Part shown: positions 24,690-34,290 of the stretch, in pieces
Layout: each line of letters starts with the position of its first letter
How positions within the stretch are numbered: position 1 is the first letter of the stretch
Origin: a virus
Length of the DNA stretch: 64,000 bases
IMG/VR virus record: IMGVR_UViG_3300045971_000247
Span: 1 to 64,000 of that record
Direction: 5' to 3' (one strand)
Made by a program: the position numbers and the translations under genes
The notes under the pieces: generated by a model
The model's input: the letters and a program-made list of their open reading frames with translations, nothing else
What the model was told of the DNA's origin: nothing
Database searches by the model: none

Positions 24690-24885
24690 GCAACTCGACG
24701 CCGCCATCCAGCGCGCCCTGTGGGATCTGGGCCGCAGCAACTGGGCCTGGGACGCCACCTCGAAGCGCTACGAGTCACGCACCCCCGAAGAACGCGAACG
24801 CTGGTGGACTCACGTCGCCAGCGCCAACACAACAAGCTGGCGCGAACTCCGCGTCAAGGTCGTCACCATGAGCCTCACCAAATGA
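24673..24885 (+). CDS. Small protein in the MoxR-VWA module (70 aa)
   Basis: ATG at 24673 lies inside the end of the DUF3150 gene. Trp-rich sequence (QRALWDLGRSNWAWDATSKR) and a WREL segment near the end. Its stop overlaps the next start (ATGA). No family recognised. Confidence 0.5.
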   Translation: MVAWSKQLDAAIQRALWDLGRSNWAWDATSKRYESRTPEERERWWTHVASANTTSWRELRVKVVTMSLTK

Positions 24886-25991
24886 ACAAAGAAGCACACG
24901 ACAAGATGGTCCGCGGCCGCGTCGCCCTCTACATCAAGGACGGCTTCTACGGCCCGCTCTCGATGCGCTTCCTGATGAAGGAGCGCAAGTCCTGCAAGAC
25001 CGCGCGCATCAGCCACACGACGATCTTCTACAACCCGGACTTCATCGACAAGCTGGAAGAGCACCTGATGCCAAGCCTGTTCGCCCACGAAGTGCAGCAC
25101 TGCATGCTCAACCACATCGACCGGTGCGGTGGCCGGAATCCAAGGAAGTGGAACCAAGCCGGCGATTACGTCATCAACGCCAACCTGAAGCGCGACGGCT
25201 ACGAAATCGGCGAGTCGTGGCTGTTCAACCAAGCCTACAGCGGCATGTCCACCGACGAGATTTACAACCTGCTGCCCGACCAGGACGACGGCGATGAATC
25301 CGGCGATGGTGATGGCGCCGGCGACCCGCTCGACGAGATGGAGCCCGGCGACCCGAAGGACATCGAGGAGAAGGAACTGGAGTGGAAGATCGCCACGATC
25401 CAGGCCGCCGAAGCTGCCAAGCTCGCCGGCTGCATGCCAGCCTCCATGGAGCGGCTCGTCGAAAAGCTCACAACAAACCAAGTGTCTTGGCGCGAACGCC
25501 TGCGCCGGTTCGCCACCGAGCACGCCAAGGACGACTCCTGCTGGTCACGGCCTGACCGCCGCATGCTGTCGCTCGGGTACATCTTCCCGAGCCTCTACAG
25601 CGAGAATGTCGGGCTCATCGTCAACGACATCGACACCAGCGGCTCGATCAATCAGGCCACGCTCGACACCTTCGGCGCTGAAATCACGGCCATCAAGCAT
25701 CAGGTGCGGCCGCAGAAGATGGTGAACATCTACTGCGACTCGGCCATCAACAAGGTCGATGAGTTCGGCGAGTTCGATGAGCCGGACTACATCATGTGCG
25801 GCGGTGGCGGCACAGACTTCCGGCCACCGTTTGCGTACGTGGCCGAGAAGGGGCTGAAACCGACGTGCATGATCTACCTCACCGACGGCTACGGCCCATT
25901 CCCGACTGAGCCGCCGCCCTACCCTGTCATGTGGGTGATGACGACGGACGTCGTTGCCCCGTTTGGCGAAACGATCAGGATCAACACATGA
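24882..25991 (+). CDS. DUF2201-type putative metallopeptidase with VWA-like domain (369 aa)
   Basis: N-terminal metallopeptidase-like domain with LFAHEVQHCMLNH (His69-Glu70, His73 and a later His), a zinc-binding HExxH. An acidic linker (~residues 125-160) follows, then a VWA-like domain with a DTSGS metal-site motif (IVNDIDTSGSINQ) and GGGGTDFRPPF. This pairing with a MoxR ATPase is a known two-component arrangement (ATPase plus VWA). The zinc site looks intact, so real protease activity is possible. Confidence 0.8.
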   Translation: MNKEAHDKMVRGRVALYIKDGFYGPLSMRFLMKERKSCKTARISHTTIFYNPDFIDKLEEHLMPSLFAHEVQHCMLNHIDRCGGRNPRKWNQAGDYVINANLKRDGYEIGESWLFNQAYSGMSTDEIYNLLPDQDDGDESGDGDGAGDPLDEMEPGDPKDIEEKELEWKIATIQAAEAAKLAGCMPASMERLVEKLTTNQVSWRERLRRFATEHAKDDSCWSRPDRRMLSLGYIFPSLYSENVGLIVNDIDTSGSINQATLDTFGAEITAIKHQVRPQKMVNIYCDSAINKVDEFGEFDEPDYIMCGGGGTDFRPPFAYVAEKGLKPTCMIYLTDGYGPFPTEPPPYPVMWVMTTDVVAPFGETIRINT

Positions 25992-27976: not shown

Positions 27977-29364
27977 AACCCTTCGCCCATCAACTCGTCA
28001 GCCTTAAGCACAACGAGACGACGGACATCGTCTTCGACTGCTCCGACGCTGGCACCGGCAAGACAGGCGTGCGGGTTTTTCGCTACGCCAAGCGCAAGAA
28101 GAAGAAAGCCGGCTGCATGCTCGTGCTCGGCCTGCGCTCTACGCTGCGCTCCGTGTGGGAATCCGACTTCAAGAAGTTCGCACCCGAAATCACGACCTCT
28201 GTAGCCACAGCCGCTAACCGCGAAGCCGCATTCGCCAAGGACGTCGATGTCTACATCACGAACCACGACGCAGTGAAGTGGCTGGCTAAGCAAAAGCCAG
28301 CGTTCTGGAAGAAGTTCGACGAAATCGTCGTCGACGAGTCGGAGTTCTTCAAGCACTACACCAGCCAGCGCAGCAAGGCCCTGCTGAAGCTCGTCAAGCA
28401 CTTCAAGTACCGCACGTGCATGACCGCCACGCCCAACGACAACACCATCGTGGACGTGTGGCATCAGGTGCTGCTGCTTGATAACGGTGCGCGACTGGGC
28501 CGGCTGTACTTCCCGTTCCGCAACTCCGTGTCCACGCCCGTCCAGGTCGGCCACAGTGCCAACATGGTTGAGTGGCGTGACAAGGAAGGCGCTGAAGACG
28601 CTGTGTTCGGTCTCCTGTCCGACATCGTGGTCCGCCACCGCCTGGACGACTGCGCCGACATCCCAGAGAACCACCAGTACCCGCTGATGTACGAGATGTC
28701 CACGCCACAGAAGAAGGCCTACATGCAGATGGAGGCCAGCAAGATGCTCGACCTGGGCAAGCTCGGCGGCGTCACAGCCATCAACGCGGCTGCGGTCGCC
28801 ACCAAGCTCCTTCAAGTCGCTTCAGGCGCGGTCTATGACGGTACAGGCAAATACGCCGTCATCGACACCAGCCGCTATGAACTCATCCTGGACCTCTGTG
28901 AACAACGCAAACACCCGCTCGTCCTCTTCCAGTGGAAACACCAGCGCGACCTGTTGGTTGCTGAAGCCGAAAAGCGAGGCAAGACCTTCGCGGTCTTCGA
29001 CGGCGACACCACCGACGAAGAGCGCTTCAACATCGTGCAGCGCTACCAGCGCGGCCAGTACGACGTGCTCTTTGCTCACCCCAAGACCGTCGGCCACGGC
29101 CAGACCCTGACCCGCGGCACCTCGACGATCTGGGCCTCACCCACCCACCTCGCTGCTCAATTCCTCCAGGCCTCGTCCCGCCAGCGCCGCATTGGCCAGA
29201 CGGAGAAGACCGAGACCGTGGTCATCATCGCCGAGGGCACGACTGATGAGTGGGTCTACGAGAACTGCATGCGCAAAGACGGGCGCATGAAGAGCCTGCT
29301 GGAGTTGTTTGCCGGGAACACGCCGGTGCCGACAAAGTCAACCAAGACGAAAGCCATGGCATGA
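27973..29364 (+). CDS. SNF2-type superfamily 2 helicase (463 aa)
   Basis: An ATP-dependent DNA translocase/helicase. Motif I is CSDAGTGKTG (Lys30), motif II reads VVDESEFF (DESE, a variant of DEAH/DEAD), motif III is MTATPNDN, motif V-VI is ...QASSRQRRIGQTE. Start ATG at 27973 is set by the ATGA overlap. It ends 4 nt into the polymerase start. Likely branch migration or replication-fork role. Confidence 0.85.
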   Translation: MKPFAHQLVSLKHNETTDIVFDCSDAGTGKTGVRVFRYAKRKKKKAGCMLVLGLRSTLRSVWESDFKKFAPEITTSVATAANREAAFAKDVDVYITNHDAVKWLAKQKPAFWKKFDEIVVDESEFFKHYTSQRSKALLKLVKHFKYRTCMTATPNDNTIVDVWHQVLLLDNGARLGRLYFPFRNSVSTPVQVGHSANMVEWRDKEGAEDAVFGLLSDIVVRHRLDDCADIPENHQYPLMYEMSTPQKKAYMQMEASKMLDLGKLGGVTAINAAAVATKLLQVASGAVYDGTGKYAVIDTSRYELILDLCEQRKHPLVLFQWKHQRDLLVAEAEKRGKTFAVFDGDTTDEERFNIVQRYQRGQYDVLFAHPKTVGHGQTLTRGTSTIWASPTHLAAQFLQASSRQRRIGQTEKTETVVIIAEGTTDEWVYENCMRKDGRMKSLLELFAGNTPVPTKSTKTKAMA

Positions 29365-32300
29365 ACTGGAAAACAGCCATCCGCAAGGCCACGCAATACA
29401 TCGTTCCCGAATTCGCTCGGCCGATCTTTCGCTCCAAAGACGTCGACTGGGACCGCCTCGTCTCCATCGACTTCGAGACGTTCTACGACGATGACTACAC
29501 GTTGTTGAAGCTCTCCACGTCGGAGTACGTGCGCGACCCGCGCTTCAAGGCGCAGATGCTGTACCTCAAGGTCGGCCGCAAGCCTGCCCGCATCATCCCG
29601 CCGAACAGAATTGCCACCGAACTGCGCAAGATCAACTGGGCCACACATGCGCTCCTCTGCCACCACACTCAGTTTGACGGTCTCATTCTTAGCCATCATT
29701 ACGGCGTCGTACCTTCTTTTTACTACGACACCCTCTCTATGGCCCGTGGTCTGCACAGCAACGAAATCGGTGCTGGGCTGGACGAAGTGTCCATGTACTA
29801 CGGCGGCGCCGGCAAAGTCCAGGGCGTCCTGGAGACGACAAAAGGCGTACTCAACTGGAGCCCTGAACTGTTCAAGCGGGTGACACCGTATTGCCAGAAC
29901 GACGGCGACGAAATGCTGCGGGTCTTCGAAGAGATGATCTACGCGCTGCCTGAAGAAGAAGTCGACCTCATCAACGTCATCGTCCGCATGTTCTGCGACC
30001 CAGTGCTGGAGATTGATCGGCCACGGGTCGAAGCCGAACTGGCGCGAGAGGTCAAGGAACGGGACGAACTGCTCACCGGCATAGTCAACACAGCCGCTTA
30101 CTACGAAGACAAGACCGTGCTGAAGACGAAGGCCGAACGCGCACTGGTCGGCAAAGAGCGCGACCTTCTGATCGCCAAGCGCATCCTGGGCAGCAACGAG
30201 AAGTTCGCCGGGCTGCTGCTGGACGAAAGCGTCGACCCACCTGTCAAGCTCAGCCCGGCCTGGATGAAGAAGGACAAAGCCGCGCGTGAAGCCGACCCTG
30301 AAGGCAAGTGGACCTACGCGTTTGCCAAGGACGACATCGAGTTCCAGAACCTGCCTGACGTTCAAGAACGGTGGCAGAGCATCTTCGACCTGAATGACAC
30401 CAAGCAGGTCAAGCTGGCCGCTGAGAAATCCATCCGCCTGCGCGCCCTGGTCGACGCCCGCATCGCTGTCAAGTCGACGACAAACATCACCCGGGCCGAG
30501 CGGCTGCTGACCGCCAGCACCAACGGCATGCGGCTGCCGGCCTACTACGCCTACAGCCGCGCCCACACCCACCGGCTGGGCGGCGGCGACAAGCGCAACC
30601 TTCAGAACCTGAAGCGCGGCGGTGAGCTTCGCCGCTCAATTCGCGCCCAGAAGGGCCATGTCCTGGTCGTCGGTGACTCTGGTCAGATCGAGGCCCGCAC
30701 AAACGCATGGCTGTGGCGCCAGGACGACCTCCTGACGATCTTCCGCAACAAGGGCGATCCGTACTGCGACATGGCCTCAGTCGTCTACGGCCGCATCATC
30801 ACCAAGGCCGACGCCACCGAGCGCTTCGTTGGCAAAGTTTGCGTCGCTGGAGACACCCTCGTATTGACAAACCATGGTGTTAAGTCTATCGTCGATGTAC
30901 GATCTAATGATATGCTATGGGACGGTACAGCATGGGTGCTCCACGACGGACTTGTCCGCCAAGGAACGAAACAAGTATTCAGAAGGCACGGCTTCGCCGC
31001 CACACGGGACCACGAAATCCTGACGGAACGTGGGTGGCAGGAGTGGTCCGCGGTCCTTACCGACCCTTCCCTTTTTCAGTCGGCGCTCAATTCGGCGACC
31101 TCACCGTTGTACGTTGGGAACACTACGTTTCCAGAGACGGGAAACCTTGGGGTTACCGGCCTGTATGCAGATGCACCTGCGGTGCTGAAAACATGGTCTA
31201 TGTCAGCAGCCTCAAAGCTGGCCGCAGCACTCGGTGCAATTCATGCGCCAAAGTCGCCGCCGCCACTAAACGCTACTGGGCCTACAAACACGCAATGGCC
31301 AGCGACGAGCACCGTACTCGGTTGCTCAATCGACTATCGTCAGCAATCGCTCGTTGTGCAAACCCCAACAACGCTTCGTACAAACATTACGGACTGCGGG
31401 GCATTTCAGTGGCTGCTGAATGGCGTGCAGATCGCGCAGCGTTTCTTATCCATGTTCAAACTTTGCCTGGATGGGACGATCCGACGCTTGAACTCGACAG
31501 AATCAACAACAGCGGCAATTACGAACCGAACAATATCCGATTTCGCTCGAAGGGCGCCAACATGCGCAACCGCCGTAAAGTCGAAGACTTGGAACAGCGC
31601 ATCCGCGACCTTGAGCGAGACAACGCAGACCTACGATCTCGCAAACGCAGGACCTAACTGTCGATTTACTGTCCTGACAGAAGCAGGTCCGCTGATAATT
31701 CACAACTGTGTTCTTGGTCTGGGCTTCCAGATGGGCGCCAAGAAGCTCCAGATGACCCTAGCCAAGGGCGCGCTCGGTGGCCCGCCGGTGTTCATCACCT
31801 TGGCTGAAGCCGAGCGCTGGGTCAAGCTGTACCGCAACAAGAACCGCAAGATCGAAGCCGGCTGGCGCATCTGCACCGGCATCATCGAAGACATGGCCGC
31901 GGGACGTACCGGCGCGCACGGGCCGATCAACTGGGAAGCCAACAAGGTCTGGCTGCCCAACGGGATGTGCCTGCACTACCCCGACCTGAAGAAGGCCGTG
32001 GGCGACCAGGGCTTCGAAGAGTGGACCTACGGATCGACCCTCAAGGGCACACCGATCCGCAAGAAGCTCTACGGCGGCCTGCTGTGTCTCGGAGCAGGCA
32101 CACAAGTCCTGACCGACAACGGCTGGAAATCTATCGTCGAAGTGCGATCTGATGATAAAGTATGGGATGGTACTAACTGGGTGGAGCATTCAGGTGTCAT
32201 CTACAAAGGCAAAAAGCAAACCATCGACTTCGGCGGTGTGCGCATCACCGCCAACCATGAAGTCCTCGTCGAGGAAACGTGGCTCCCCGCTGGATGCACA

Positions 32301-33245
32301 TCCCACAGTGCCGCTACATCATCGTGCGAAAGACATTACGGGGCTGCGACACGGTGCGCTGATAGCAGTGTCCCCGTGGGGCAGCAACGGAAGAAGAACA
32401 CTGTGGACACTCCAGTGCAATTGCGGAATGCGCATTACCCGTTCAGCAACCGAGTTTCAGAAAGGCCGCACAAAAAGTTGCGGATGCCAAACCTCTTCGC
32501 TCATCTCCTTCAGCATATCAACCCATGGCATGTCCAAACATCCGACGTTTCACGTATGGCGGGGCATGCTGGACCGGTGTCAACTGCCTACACATCAATC
32601 ATGGGCGCGATACGGAGGGCGGGGCATCACAGTATGCGCGGCGTGGAGTTCGTTCGCCGCGTTCTGGGCAGACATGGGCTCGACCTACAAACCCGGTCTC
32701 TGTCTGGATCGCAAAGACAACATGGCGGGCTATTCACCCAGCAATTGTCACTGGGTCACGTACAAACAGAACAGCCGCAACACTCGTGCTCAAGCACTTA
32801 TCAATACACCTATCGGGCTGATTCCGTTGTGGCAGGCGTCGGAAATTTCGGGAATCAACAGCTCCACTCTCTCCTACAGGCGGGACGCAGGATGGTCAGC
32901 CGAACAGATGTTTCTCCCCCCGAAGACGTCTACGACCTAGTTGACGCGGGACCGCTACGCCGATTTACTGTTCGTGGCGACGACGGCAGACCTTTCATCG
33001 TCCACAACTGCGAGAACATCGTTCAGGCCCTGGCCCGCATCATCGTGCTCTACCAGCTGCTCGAACTGAGCAAGACGTACCGTGTGGTCATGACGACGCA
33101 CGACGAAGGCGTGCTGCACGTGCCGAAGCGCCAAGCCGAGTTCGCCTTCCAACGCATGATGAAGGCGATGACGACGCCGCTGCCCTGGTGCGAGGATCTT
33201 CCGCTGTCCGCCGAAGGTGGGTACGCGGAGGACTACAGCAAGTGA
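29361..33245 (+). CDS. Family A DNA polymerase with 3'-5' exonuclease and two inteins (1294 aa precursor, 697 aa spliced)
   Basis: The replicative polymerase. ATG at 29361 overlaps the helicase stop. Exonuclease motifs: VSIDFETFY (Asp37, Glu39), CHHTQFDGL and YCQNDGDE. Polymerase: motif A VVGDSGQIEAR (Asp439), motif B RFVGKV then CVLGLGFQMG split by intein 1, YGGLL then CENIVQALAR split by intein 2, motif C TTHDEGVLHV (Asp1248). Intein 1 covers residues 494-782 and intein 2 residues 909-1216, so activity requires both to splice. Removing them restores normal family A spacing. Two HNH endonuclease genes overlap the inteins in other frames. Confidence 0.92.
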   Translation: MNWKTAIRKATQYIVPEFARPIFRSKDVDWDRLVSIDFETFYDDDYTLLKLSTSEYVRDPRFKAQMLYLKVGRKPARIIPPNRIATELRKINWATHALLCHHTQFDGLILSHHYGVVPSFYYDTLSMARGLHSNEIGAGLDEVSMYYGGAGKVQGVLETTKGVLNWSPELFKRVTPYCQNDGDEMLRVFEEMIYALPEEEVDLINVIVRMFCDPVLEIDRPRVEAELAREVKERDELLTGIVNTAAYYEDKTVLKTKAERALVGKERDLLIAKRILGSNEKFAGLLLDESVDPPVKLSPAWMKKDKAAREADPEGKWTYAFAKDDIEFQNLPDVQERWQSIFDLNDTKQVKLAAEKSIRLRALVDARIAVKSTTNITRAERLLTASTNGMRLPAYYAYSRAHTHRLGGGDKRNLQNLKRGGELRRSIRAQKGHVLVVGDSGQIEARTNAWLWRQDDLLTIFRNKGDPYCDMASVVYGRIITKADATERFVGKVCVAGDTLVLTNHGVKSIVDVRSNDMLWDGTAWVLHDGLVRQGTKQVFRRHGFAATRDHEILTERGWQEWSAVLTDPSLFQSALNSATSPLYVGNTTFPETGNLGVTGLYADAPAVLKTWSMSAASKLAAALGAIHAPKSPPPLNATGPTNTQWPATSTVLGCSIDYRQQSLVVQTPTTLRTNITDCGAFQWLLNGVQIAQRFLSMFKLCLDGTIRRLNSTESTTAAITNRTISDFARRAPTCATAVKSKTWNSASATLSETTQTYDLANAGPNCRFTVLTEAGPLIIHNCVLGLGFQMGAKKLQMTLAKGALGGPPVFITLAEAERWVKLYRNKNRKIEAGWRICTGIIEDMAAGRTGAHGPINWEANKVWLPNGMCLHYPDLKKAVGDQGFEEWTYGSTLKGTPIRKKLYGGLLCLGAGTQVLTDNGWKSIVEVRSDDKVWDGTNWVEHSGVIYKGKKQTIDFGGVRITANHEVLVEETWLPAGCTSHSAATSSCERHYGAATRCADSSVPVGQQRKKNTVDTPVQLRNAHYPFSNRVSERPHKKLRMPNLFAHLLQHINPWHVQTSDVSRMAGHAGPVSTAYTSIMGAIRRAGHHSMRGVEFVRRVLGRHGLDLQTRSLSGSQRQHGGLFTQQLSLGHVQTEQPQHSCSSTYQYTYRADSVVAGVGNFGNQQLHSLLQAGRRMVSRTDVSPPEDVYDLVDAGPLRRFTVRGDDGRPFIVHNCENIVQALARIIVLYQLLELSKTYRVVMTTHDEGVLHVPKRQAEFAFQRMMKAMTTPLPWCEDLPLSAEGGYAEDYSK
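30840..31706 (+). mobile_element. Intein 1 in polymerase motif B (289 aa)
   Basis: Starts with Cys1 (CVAGDTLVLTNHG, block A), block B is TRDHEILTERGW with Thr-x-x-His, block F is QTYDLANAGPNCRF and block G is GPLIIHN followed by extein Cys+1. All blocks are in the polymerase frame without interruption. Between about residues 68 and 255 of the intein the frame is open but shows no recognised domain, because that DNA also encodes an HNH endonuclease in frame +2. Confidence 0.93.
30917..31657 (+). CDS. HNH homing endonuclease nested out of frame inside intein 1 (up to 246 aa)
   Basis: Frame +2 relative to the intein. From residue 59 the protein has the layout of phage zinc-finger HNH homing enzymes: FGDLTVVRWEHY, a CRCTCG ... 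RCNSC zinc site, then SAIARCANPNN, YKHYGLRGISVAAEW and LELDRINNSGNYEPNN (Asp194) with IRFRSKGANMRNRR. The coding region begins 77 nt into the intein and stops 49 nt before its end, so it lies completely within it. The first ~58 residues overlap blocks A-B and may not all be translated; the ATGs at 30917 and 30932 lack good ribosome sites and GTGs at 31034/31043 are alternatives. It would drive spread of the intein at motif B. Confidence 0.88.
   Translation: MGRYSMGAPRRTCPPRNETSIQKARLRRHTGPRNPDGTWVAGVVRGPYRPFPFSVGAQFGDLTVVRWEHYVSRDGKPWGYRPVCRCTCGAENMVYVSSLKAGRSTRCNSCAKVAAATKRYWAYKHAMASDEHRTRLLNRLSSAIARCANPNNASYKHYGLRGISVAAEWRADRAAFLIHVQTLPGWDDPTLELDRINNSGNYEPNNIRFRSKGANMRNRRKVEDLEQRIRDLERDNADLRSRKRRT
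32085..33008 (+). mobile_element. Intein 2 in a conserved polymerase helix (308 aa)
   Basis: Cys1 (CLGAGTQVLTDNGWKSIVEV, block A), block B TANHEVLVEETW with Thr-x-x-His, block F VYDLVDAGPLRRFTV, block G GRPFIVHN then extein Cys+1 (CENIVQALAR). Flanking regions closely resemble intein 1: both contain near-identical DNA around ...TCTATCGTCGA.GT.CGATCT.ATGAT. The interior polymerase frame has no recognisable domain and overlaps an HNH gene in frame +1. Confidence 0.93.
32152..32940 (+). CDS. HNH homing endonuclease nested out of frame inside intein 2 (up to 262 aa)
   Basis: Frame +1 relative to the intein. From about residue 62: ITGLRHGALIAVSPW, a CNCG ... KSCGC zinc site, FHVWRGMLDRCQLPTHQSW, then RYGGRGITVCAAW and LCLDRKDNMAGYSPSNCHWV (Asp186). 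A C-terminal helix-turn-helix-like segment (PLWQASEISGINSSTLSYRR then GWSAEQM) resembles NUMOD-type DNA-binding repeats. It begins 67 nt into the intein and ends 68 nt before its end. Start uncertain: ATG 32152, 32167, 32257 or GTG ~32308. Confidence 0.88.
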   Translation: MIKYGMVLTGWSIQVSSTKAKSKPSTSAVCASPPTMKSSSRKRGSPLDAHPTVPLHHRAKDITGLRHGALIAVSPWGSNGRRTLWTLQCNCGMRITRSATEFQKGRTKSCGCQTSSLISFSISTHGMSKHPTFHVWRGMLDRCQLPTHQSWARYGGRGITVCAAWSSFAAFWADMGSTYKPGLCLDRKDNMAGYSPSNCHWVTYKQNSRNTRAQALINTPIGLIPLWQASEISGINSSTLSYRRDAGWSAEQMFLPPKTSTT

Positions 33246-33484
33246 GCGTCGCCGCGGGTGCATGGCCTGCGTGGGTCGAGATTTGGCAAGACATACACGA
33301 ATGCAAGACCCGCGTCATCGTCCACCACAAAACTCTGGAATACAGGTTCGTGGTCGACACCCACGCTTATCCATACAAGGAACTGCGCGACCACATCTAC
33401 GCGATCAAAGGCTCTCTCGTGCGTCAGCAAGGGATCATTGACGCAGTCACCAAGAAACTCACCTCCAACTCTGAACGACCATGA
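33242..33484 (+). CDS. Unrecognised small protein (80 aa)
   Basis: GTG start overlapping the polymerase stop. Sequence has AWPAWVEIWQDIHECKTRV and an LEYRFVVDTHAYPYKELR segment with a KKL end. No motif. Position suggests a polymerase-associated factor, unproven. Confidence 0.5.
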   Translation: MSVAAGAWPAWVEIWQDIHECKTRVIVHHKTLEYRFVVDTHAYPYKELRDHIYAIKGSLVRQQGIIDAVTKKLTSNSERP

Positions 33485-33795
33485 CCCTCAAGATCGAATG
33501 CCCTGAATACTTCGCCGACGTGGAGATGTTCGCGCACGACAACGAATGCTCCGAAGCCCTGCTCACCGGCTTTCAACGGTTGCGGAACATGTGCAAGGAG
33601 GATGAGGTCGTCTACCTGCACAAGGACTTCGCGCCGCTGAGCTTCGCCTTCCTCCTGACCGACGGCAAGCGCAACCGGCTCGTCGGCGGCCTGATCTACA
33701 GCGGCCCCGGTCAAGTCCTGAACGGCGGCGCACCGACCTTCACGGTCAGCGTCGAGCCACACACCGGTGAGCACAAGTGGTCGGTCCACACCTGA
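33481..33795 (+). CDS. DUF4120-like protein (104 aa)
   Basis: The C-terminal part (VGGLIYSGPGQ ... TFTVSVEPHTG then WSVHT) resembles the GGLIYHG...SV-x-L/I-x-P...W-x-I-H-T pattern of DUF4120, a phage/plasmid family of unknown role. Middle segment VVYLHKDFAPLSFAFLL. Moderately uncertain. Ends the polymerase operon. Confidence 0.5.
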   Translation: MTLKIECPEYFADVEMFAHDNECSEALLTGFQRLRNMCKEDEVVYLHKDFAPLSFAFLLTDGKRNRLVGGLIYSGPGQVLNGGAPTFTVSVEPHTGEHKWSVHT

Positions 33796-33820
33796 AATTT
33801 TTCTTCCCAACCGTCTGTCA

Positions 33821-33831
33821 TCTAAGATAGA
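33821..33831 (+). promoter_or_regulatory. TCTAAGATAGA motif, candidate promoter of the 33859 gene
   Basis: Identical 11-mer to 17659-17669, 28 nt upstream of the next ATG and 26 nt after the previous stop. The AAGGAAAC ribosome site follows. Confidence 0.4.
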
Positions 33832-33858
33832 CTAACGCTCATACAAGGAAACAAAACG

Positions 33859-34290
33859 ATGGTCGCTGTCACCTCCCCCACCGCCAAGGCCCGCGTCAAG
33901 GCCGCCCCTGTCACCGTCGGTTCGCTGATCGACGCCCTCTGGACCCAGCGTGAAGCCAAGCGCGAACTCGAAGCCAAGATCAAGGAAATCGAGACCCTCA
34001 TGGCGCAGTACGAGGAACAACTCGACATCCAGATGGCCAAGGACGGCGTAATCAAGGCCAACGGGGCGCACGCCTCGGCCTCGTTCTCCAGCACCGTCAG
34101 CGCCAGCGTCGAAGGCGAAGGCGGCTGGGATCTGGCCTTCCCCTGGATCGCCAAGCACAAGTATTGGTCCCTGCTGCGCAAGCAGCTGAACGACGCCGCC
34201 TACCGCGAAATCCTGGAAGCCGGCAAGAAGGTGCCCGGCATTCAGCCCTTCACCAAAAAGCGCCTCACCCTCCGCTCCCTGTCGTCCTGA
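33859..34290 (+). CDS. Putative recombination/replication accessory protein (143 aa)
   Basis: N-terminal coiled coil (QREAKRELEAKIKEIETLMA), a Gly/Ser-rich strand region, then GGWDLAFPWIAKHKYWSLLR and IPG-like FTKKRLTL at the end. Phage proteins of this design are often found just before ssDNA-binding or exonuclease genes. No activity motif; function unknown. Strong ribosome site AAGGAAAC. Confidence 0.55.
   Translation: MVAVTSPTAKARVKAAPVTVGSLIDALWTQREAKRELEAKIKEIETLMAQYEEQLDIQMAKDGVIKANGAHASASFSSTVSASVEGEGGWDLAFPWIAKHKYWSLLRKQLNDAAYREILEAGKKVPGIQPFTKKRLTLRSLSS

Follow-up and report, generated by a model that had tools for sequence, protein, structure and literature searches.

The window, by which we mean the whole analysed stretch of 64,000 nucleotides, comes from a virus record of 66,312 bases. 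Its plus strand carries a family A DNA polymerase gene (29361..33245; Pfam DNA_pol_A, E = 2.4e-9) with two inteins. When both inteins were removed, the remaining extein of 697 aa could be aligned end to end with intein-free viral polymerases, which are 57-78% identical to the window polymerase over the whole 697 aa.

Intein 1 (30840..31706, plus strand, 289 aa) lies at the site GKV/CVLG (here and below the slash marks the point of insertion). An HNH gene is nested in it in frame +2 (30932..31657, plus strand; PHROG E = 2.2e-36), with a likely ATG start at intein offset 92. This HNH belongs to a separate clade that is common to Salmonella Jerseyvirus, E. coli and Vibrio phages. A free-standing ORF of 423 aa at 24720-25991 of the window also matches an HNH endonuclease profile (phrog_1314, E = 1e-93); its length is unrelated to that of the nested HNHs.

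Intein 2 (32085..33008, plus strand, 308 aa) shows the mirror arrangement, with a different HNH in frame +1 rather than +2. It is flanked by LYGGLL and CENIVQ, has no stop in the polymerase frame and contains C1, T55xxH58, block F and H307-N308, followed by a +1 Cys. Relatives at the same site were found in viral contigs and cultured phages. Three parts, all on the plus strand, can be told apart in the intein frame: an N-terminal splicing half with blocks A and B (residues 1-71, 32085..32297), a linker that overlaps the HNH gene (residues 74-271, 32304..32897) and a C-terminal splicing half with blocks F and G (residues 280-308, 32922..33008), in which VYDLxNxGPxxRF...VHN is conserved. The HNH ORF in frame +1 (HNH2, 32152..32940, plus strand) is open from 32113, has a conserved core at 32314-32937 and ends at a TAG stop at 32938-32940.

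The initial annotation had placed at 32085-33008 an intein with all splicing blocks in the polymerase frame, and within it a +1-frame HNH endonuclease at 32152-32940 with a C-terminal HTH-like segment; it had also pointed out that two alternative frames are used in one gene. The intein, the HNH and the use of two frames held, with the conserved part of the HNH probably limited to its core. The HTH-like tail is only weakly supported (three predicted helices; LCoR HTH profile match with E = 0.07).

Intein 2 and its nested HNH

The structure alignment of intein 2 consisted of 39 intein-frame sequences, from which rows of annotated phage records were left out. C1, T55, H58 and N308 are invariant in it and H307 is conserved in at least 90%. 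With HN at the end and C after it, the residue criteria of a class 1 intein are met. So is the criterion of an insertion that is in frame, at a conserved site and missing from some alleles, as there is no stop and more than 20 intein-free homologues were found.

When intein 2 was modelled with AlphaFold, residues 1-71 and 280-308 formed a mini-intein (pLDDT ~89-98, with 93-97 in the C-terminal half) and residues 74-271 were predicted to be disordered (pLDDT ~40). The top Foldseek matches of the model were mini-inteins (probability 0.98-1.0, E ~0.01), and model and matches together meet the Hint-fold criterion. The E-value reaches only ~0.01 because two thirds of the model are disordered. The N-terminal half also matches the Mtu RecA intein by profile (5.5e-6). 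Intein 2 stays below the curated cut-offs of Pfam and NCBIfam; its identity rests on splicing motifs, profile-to-PDB matches and the predicted fold, and protein splicing is inferred from motifs and fold.

One could take the insert for a self-splicing intron, of group I or another type, with an HNH ORF and a coincidental intein look. Phage group I introns commonly house HNH genes. However, no Rfam match at E<=1 was found in 29000-34000, the polymerase frame is open throughout, the intein catalytic residues are invariant and a Hint fold is predicted, which leaves the intron almost no room.

When PHROG HNH profiles were compared with the +1 frame, strong matches were observed (phrog_374, E = 2.9e-51; phrog_3377, E = 5.8e-44), and the intein frame of intein 2 gave no match to these profiles. 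The motifs CNCG, KSCGC, RYGGRGITVC and LCLDRKDN are all present in HNH2. The criteria of the HNH family (profile match, zinc-ribbon cysteines and LDRxDN...N) are met and the motif columns are conserved; site-specific DNA cleavage is inferred. The classical first His is replaced by Arg (LDRxDN) in HNH2 and likewise in most relatives.

The HNH2 core shares 45-52% identity with 14 same-frame relatives. The HNHs of the relatives start at MHHRAKD, which corresponds to residue 55 of the window ORF (nt 32314), and the ORF stretch ahead of the core has a pLDDT of 40-47. The conserved endonuclease thus probably does not include the initial 42-52 ORF residues. In the AlphaFold model the core is fair (pLDDT mostly 60-90) and the 38 residues ahead of it are disordered. 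Because Foldseek gave no significant match for this model in the PDB, the identity of HNH2 rests on the PHROG profiles. Only a weak profile match to I-HmuI was obtained (E = 0.25).

Coding constraint and putative start signals in the overlap

In the stop test, one protein was kept, its synonymous codons were permuted and stops were counted in the other frame. For intein 2 of the window, no intein-frame stop was observed against 5.3 expected when the HNH protein was kept (P ~0.005), and no HNH-frame stop against 3.2 expected when the intein protein was kept (P ~0.02). The corresponding counts were 0 vs 604 and 0 vs 426 for the +1 class (n = 91) and 0 vs 48 and 0 vs 85 for the +2 class (n = 14). 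The unused third frame contained 1115 stops vs 1059 expected.

There are two caveats. The openness of the intein frame helped to define the inteins in the first place, and the test left out sequences whose HNH match is interrupted by a stop (8 of 114, several with the stop at the very end of the match or in decaying copies). The codon-position test is independent of both. Difference rates at intein positions 1/2/3, taken from 37 disjoint pairs of the +1 class, were 0.24/0.18/0.49 upstream of the HNH and 0.17/0.10/0.49 downstream of it. Inside the HNH they were 0.43/0.22/0.19, that is, 0.22/0.19/0.43 at HNH positions. The overlap peaks at HNH position 3 (0.43 vs 0.17-0.23) and the flanking blocks peak at intein position 3 (0.35-0.53). 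The same switch was observed in the +2 class with the other offset. As third-position variation switches frame over the overlap, purifying selection changes frame there. The intein-frame linker is free to vary apart from avoiding stops, and in the +1 class variation in this segment follows the HNH codons.

These results bear on the possibility that the HNH frame is a fossil, in which the homing gene is no longer translated and the intein frame persists since splicing is required. Some observations agree with it. In one relative (L010:5934-6851) the site 2 intein frame is intact and the HNH is broken by a stop, with the near-relative L006 intact; a stop also lies inside the HNH of L014, nine mini-inteins have no HNH, and the start of HNH2 is unclear. 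Against it, nearly all relatives keep the HNH frame open, this frame evolves with a third-position signature, and the window alone has no HNH-frame stop where 3.2 are expected. Stops accumulating in the +1 frame of close relatives had been named at the outset as refuting evidence; the HNH frame is fully open in 91 of 98 +1 inteins, with no more than 7 interrupted within the HNH match. We regard the fossil as unlikely and a translated HNH, although inferred, as the better reading.

In the +1 class, ATG, GTG or TTG stands at the first conserved HNH residue in 60/96, and most of the others have an ATG 4-5 codons upstream. The starts at the first conserved residue are preceded by GA(A/G)GG-NTGG, which encodes the end of block B, EGW(K), and their median anti-Shine-Dalgarno energy is -7.75 vs -3.0 for background start-like codons. 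In 45/96 the HNH frame is closed by a stop 6 codons upstream of the HNH core.

In the +2 class, a start codon is found at intein offset 92 in 42/45, and the frame is open from this offset in 42/45 vs 5/71 in the +1 class, which served as control. Relatives of intein 1 have the offset-92 start codon in 16/16 and no downstream stops vs 32 expected. The signals of this class are GA-ATG-G from EW codons and TGGGAYGG from WDG codons (WDGxEW motif). Because WDGxEW forces it, the offset-92 start codon is also present by default in most +1-class inteins. Selection for the +2 start codon was considered and rejected, as A- or G-ending codons before Trp are equally common in the +1 class (p = 0.59). Only a preference for A-ending codons there differs between the classes (p = 0.006), which is weak support for start selection.

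Since the codons of EGWK and WDGxEW make a plausible Shine-Dalgarno sequence and start, separate internal initiation is the likeliest route of expression. It is therefore probable that conserved intein motifs provide the initiation signals of the HNH; initiation itself is inferred, without expression data. Alternatively, a programmed ribosomal frameshift out of the intein frame could lead into the HNH, which would yield a fusion of N-extein, intein and HNH and no free enzyme. No separate start would then be necessary, and the +2 frame is within reach of a -1 shift. However, neither an excess of -1 slippery heptamers nor a conserved slippery site was found in the +2 class (1 observed vs 0.87 expected), and the stops 6 codons ahead of the core in 45/96 +1-class inteins are accompanied by a Shine-Dalgarno-like sequence. 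Frameshifting is thus very improbable and internal initiation is preferred.

The start is least clear in the window's own copy. Intein 2 has a 27-nt insertion between block B and the HNH core, and CTA stands at the usual start position. The initial annotation had suggested internal initiation within 32152-32308, which is plausible, with translation inferred. By duplex energy alone, the candidate is a GGTGGAG ribosome-binding site with GTG 32194 (32180..32196, plus strand; -6.9), vs -3.1 and -2.9 for the rivals GTG 32308 and ATG 32152 and a background median of -3.0. None of the candidate starts of HNH2 has both a strong Shine-Dalgarno sequence and a conserved position. The start remains an inference and is the weakest point for this copy.

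Recurrence and origin

The HNH-based search gave 14 viral contigs with an intein in the same region (YGGKL/xEN), all 14 with the HNH in +1. The same region and frame were found in phages APSE-1, APSE-2 and APSE-7, Shewanella phage SFCi1 and Caulobacter phage RLK. Streptococcus phage Javan255 and Gardnerella phage AB1 belong to a second +1 group, and cultured carriers of the +2 class include Pseudomonas phage MR14, Salmonella phage Ent2, Escherichia phage Pubbukkers, EBPR siphovirus 2 and Vibrio phage 97.13.

To avoid the bias of an HNH-based search, a scan with only the first 71 splicing-domain residues was done, preceded by an intein-frame search. This splicing-block scan yielded 128 distinct inteins, of which 71 have the HNH in +1, 45 have it in +2, 9 are mini-inteins and 3 are unclassifiable (truncated or without a recognised end). 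None of its 116 HNH-bearing inteins has the HNH in frame, and none of the 128 is a long intein without HNH. As each scan kept its best 80 loci and relatives are non-independent, the 128 inteins are no random sample of inteins and describe this family only.

At least five insertion sites were observed in polymerases (GKV/CxLG, ELA/CGY, GGK/CxEN, GKL/CEN and EN/CxQ), in addition to several in proteins whose sequence, judged by eye, suggests helicases of the SNF2 and ResIII types. The +1 and +2 classes occur together in one contig in five records (the window, L010, L052, L057 and L142). In one SNF2-type helicase gene (L095:1-3092) a second intein C-terminus (YLVHN/C) lies ahead of the intein, making two inteins in one helicase. 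The mini-inteins (L200:3001-3471, L196, L248 and six others) are shorter than 200 aa and are apparent deletion products of the same family; as such they fit the prediction of a homing cycle.

When a tree of the HNHs was drawn, the +1 clade with HNH2 (100/99) was placed among free-standing phage HNHs, and the +2 clade (99/98) grouped with the second +1 group. A single clade of all +1 HNHs was rejected (AU p = 0.006) and a single clade of all intein HNHs was not (AU p = 0.30). Therefore, either the +1 arrangement arose two or more times or a change of frame took place, and a single capture followed by frame change is still allowed. The splicing-domain tree, with ~100 columns, had little resolution. 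The initial annotation had asked for inteins to be scanned for HNHs in other frames and for offsets to be compared, and had proposed that the arrangement is favoured or arose repeatedly. The scan supports the first proposal well, with 0/116 in frame; the second held only in part.

Four polymerases (L015, L016, L017 and L022) are ~71-78% identical to that of the window and lack both inteins; each of them has a native Cys at the junction of site 2. Among carriers of the same intein, the C-terminal extein segments are only 31-36% identical, vs 45-52% for the HNH cores. Intein-free close polymerases and divergent exteins of carriers match the pattern expected of a horizontally moving element; homing is inferred.

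Proposed model and known systems

We propose that intein 2 is a mini-intein whose homing endonuclease is encoded by a gene of its own that overlaps the intein, and not by an in-frame domain. Ribosomes in the polymerase frame would make the N-extein, the folded splicing halves with a long disordered linker, and the C-extein, and the intein would remove itself by splicing, as motifs and fold suggest. Other ribosomes would initiate inside the intein and read the shifted frame as far as the HNH stop shortly ahead of block F, releasing the HNH endonuclease as a free enzyme. This enzyme may cut polymerase genes that lack the intein, which would then receive a copy of it. The out-of-frame HNH would thereby keep its own start and stop without terminating the polymerase. 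What the analysis shows are the two frames and their conservation, the shift of coding constraint between them, the predicted folds, the intein-free alleles and the recurrence. The model is likely on this basis, with splicing, HNH translation, cleavage and homing inferred.

A bolder reading is that there is an entire family of polymerase and helicase inteins in phages whose endonuclease is encoded only as an overlapping out-of-frame gene, with ribosome-binding site and start built from splicing-motif codons, reached more than once and in two frames, and that this explains many phage inteins annotated as endonuclease-less. We consider this reading more likely than not.

The canonical large inteins (Mtu RecA intein and PI-SceI) also have splicing halves flanking an endonuclease between blocks B and F. 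Intein 2 meets this criterion of position and fails that of frame: its endonuclease lies in +1 and would be made as a distinct protein, from its own start to its own stop. The ShiLan domain (PMC11855218) is an out-of-frame HNH in a methylase insert which its authors could assign to neither inteins nor introns; they reported no splicing domain and no detectable ribosome-binding site and proposed that the insert stays in the protein. Like intein 2, that insert is in-frame and stop-free, hides a shifted-frame HNH and is patchily distributed. In contrast, intein 2 has a full splicing domain and profile comparison shows no relation to the ShiLan HNH (best 3.2 bits), so the ShiLan type does not apply. 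In APSE-1 (NC_000935), the P45 polymerase and P46 HNH have the same intein site and a +1 HNH whose core is 49% identical, and the overlap is annotated in GenBank, with P46 given a late start (141 aa). No statement tying the intein to the overlapping frame was found for APSE-1 in the literature searched.

In the literature searched, mostly without subscription papers, no paper was found on endonucleases that lie out of frame within true inteins. Some may be described by Gosselin et al. 2025 (bioRxiv 10.1101/2025.01.02.630785; actinobacteriophage inteins of non-canonical architecture), to which the ShiLan paper refers for the frequency of overlapping frames in actinobacteriophages. The out-of-frame HNH in a true intein is a real and widespread variant as a sequence arrangement, with its function inferred; a hidden out-of-frame HNH and the APSE-1 overlap were already known.

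Inteins are generally taught as an in-frame splicing domain plus endonuclease, and here one DNA stretch serves two proteins. As constraint passes from one frame to the other and back, homing activity would be uncoupled from splicing and from polymerase translation. The inteins are also a large natural set of overlapping genes for studies of overprinting, and since many carriers are cultured phages, the arrangement is directly testable.

Annotation has mostly overlooked the nested HNHs of these more than one hundred inteins. Inteins annotated as splicing domains only may conceal endonucleases, and all frames should be included in intein surveys. In Salmonella phage Ent2 the polymerase intein (L160:3501-4397) is annotated in this way, yet contains an unannotated HNH in +2; the HNH is likewise unannotated in the records of APSE-2, RLK and SFCi1. 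The intein 2 query matches a total of 142 Salmonella phage records, which probably have the Ent2 polymerase intein as well.
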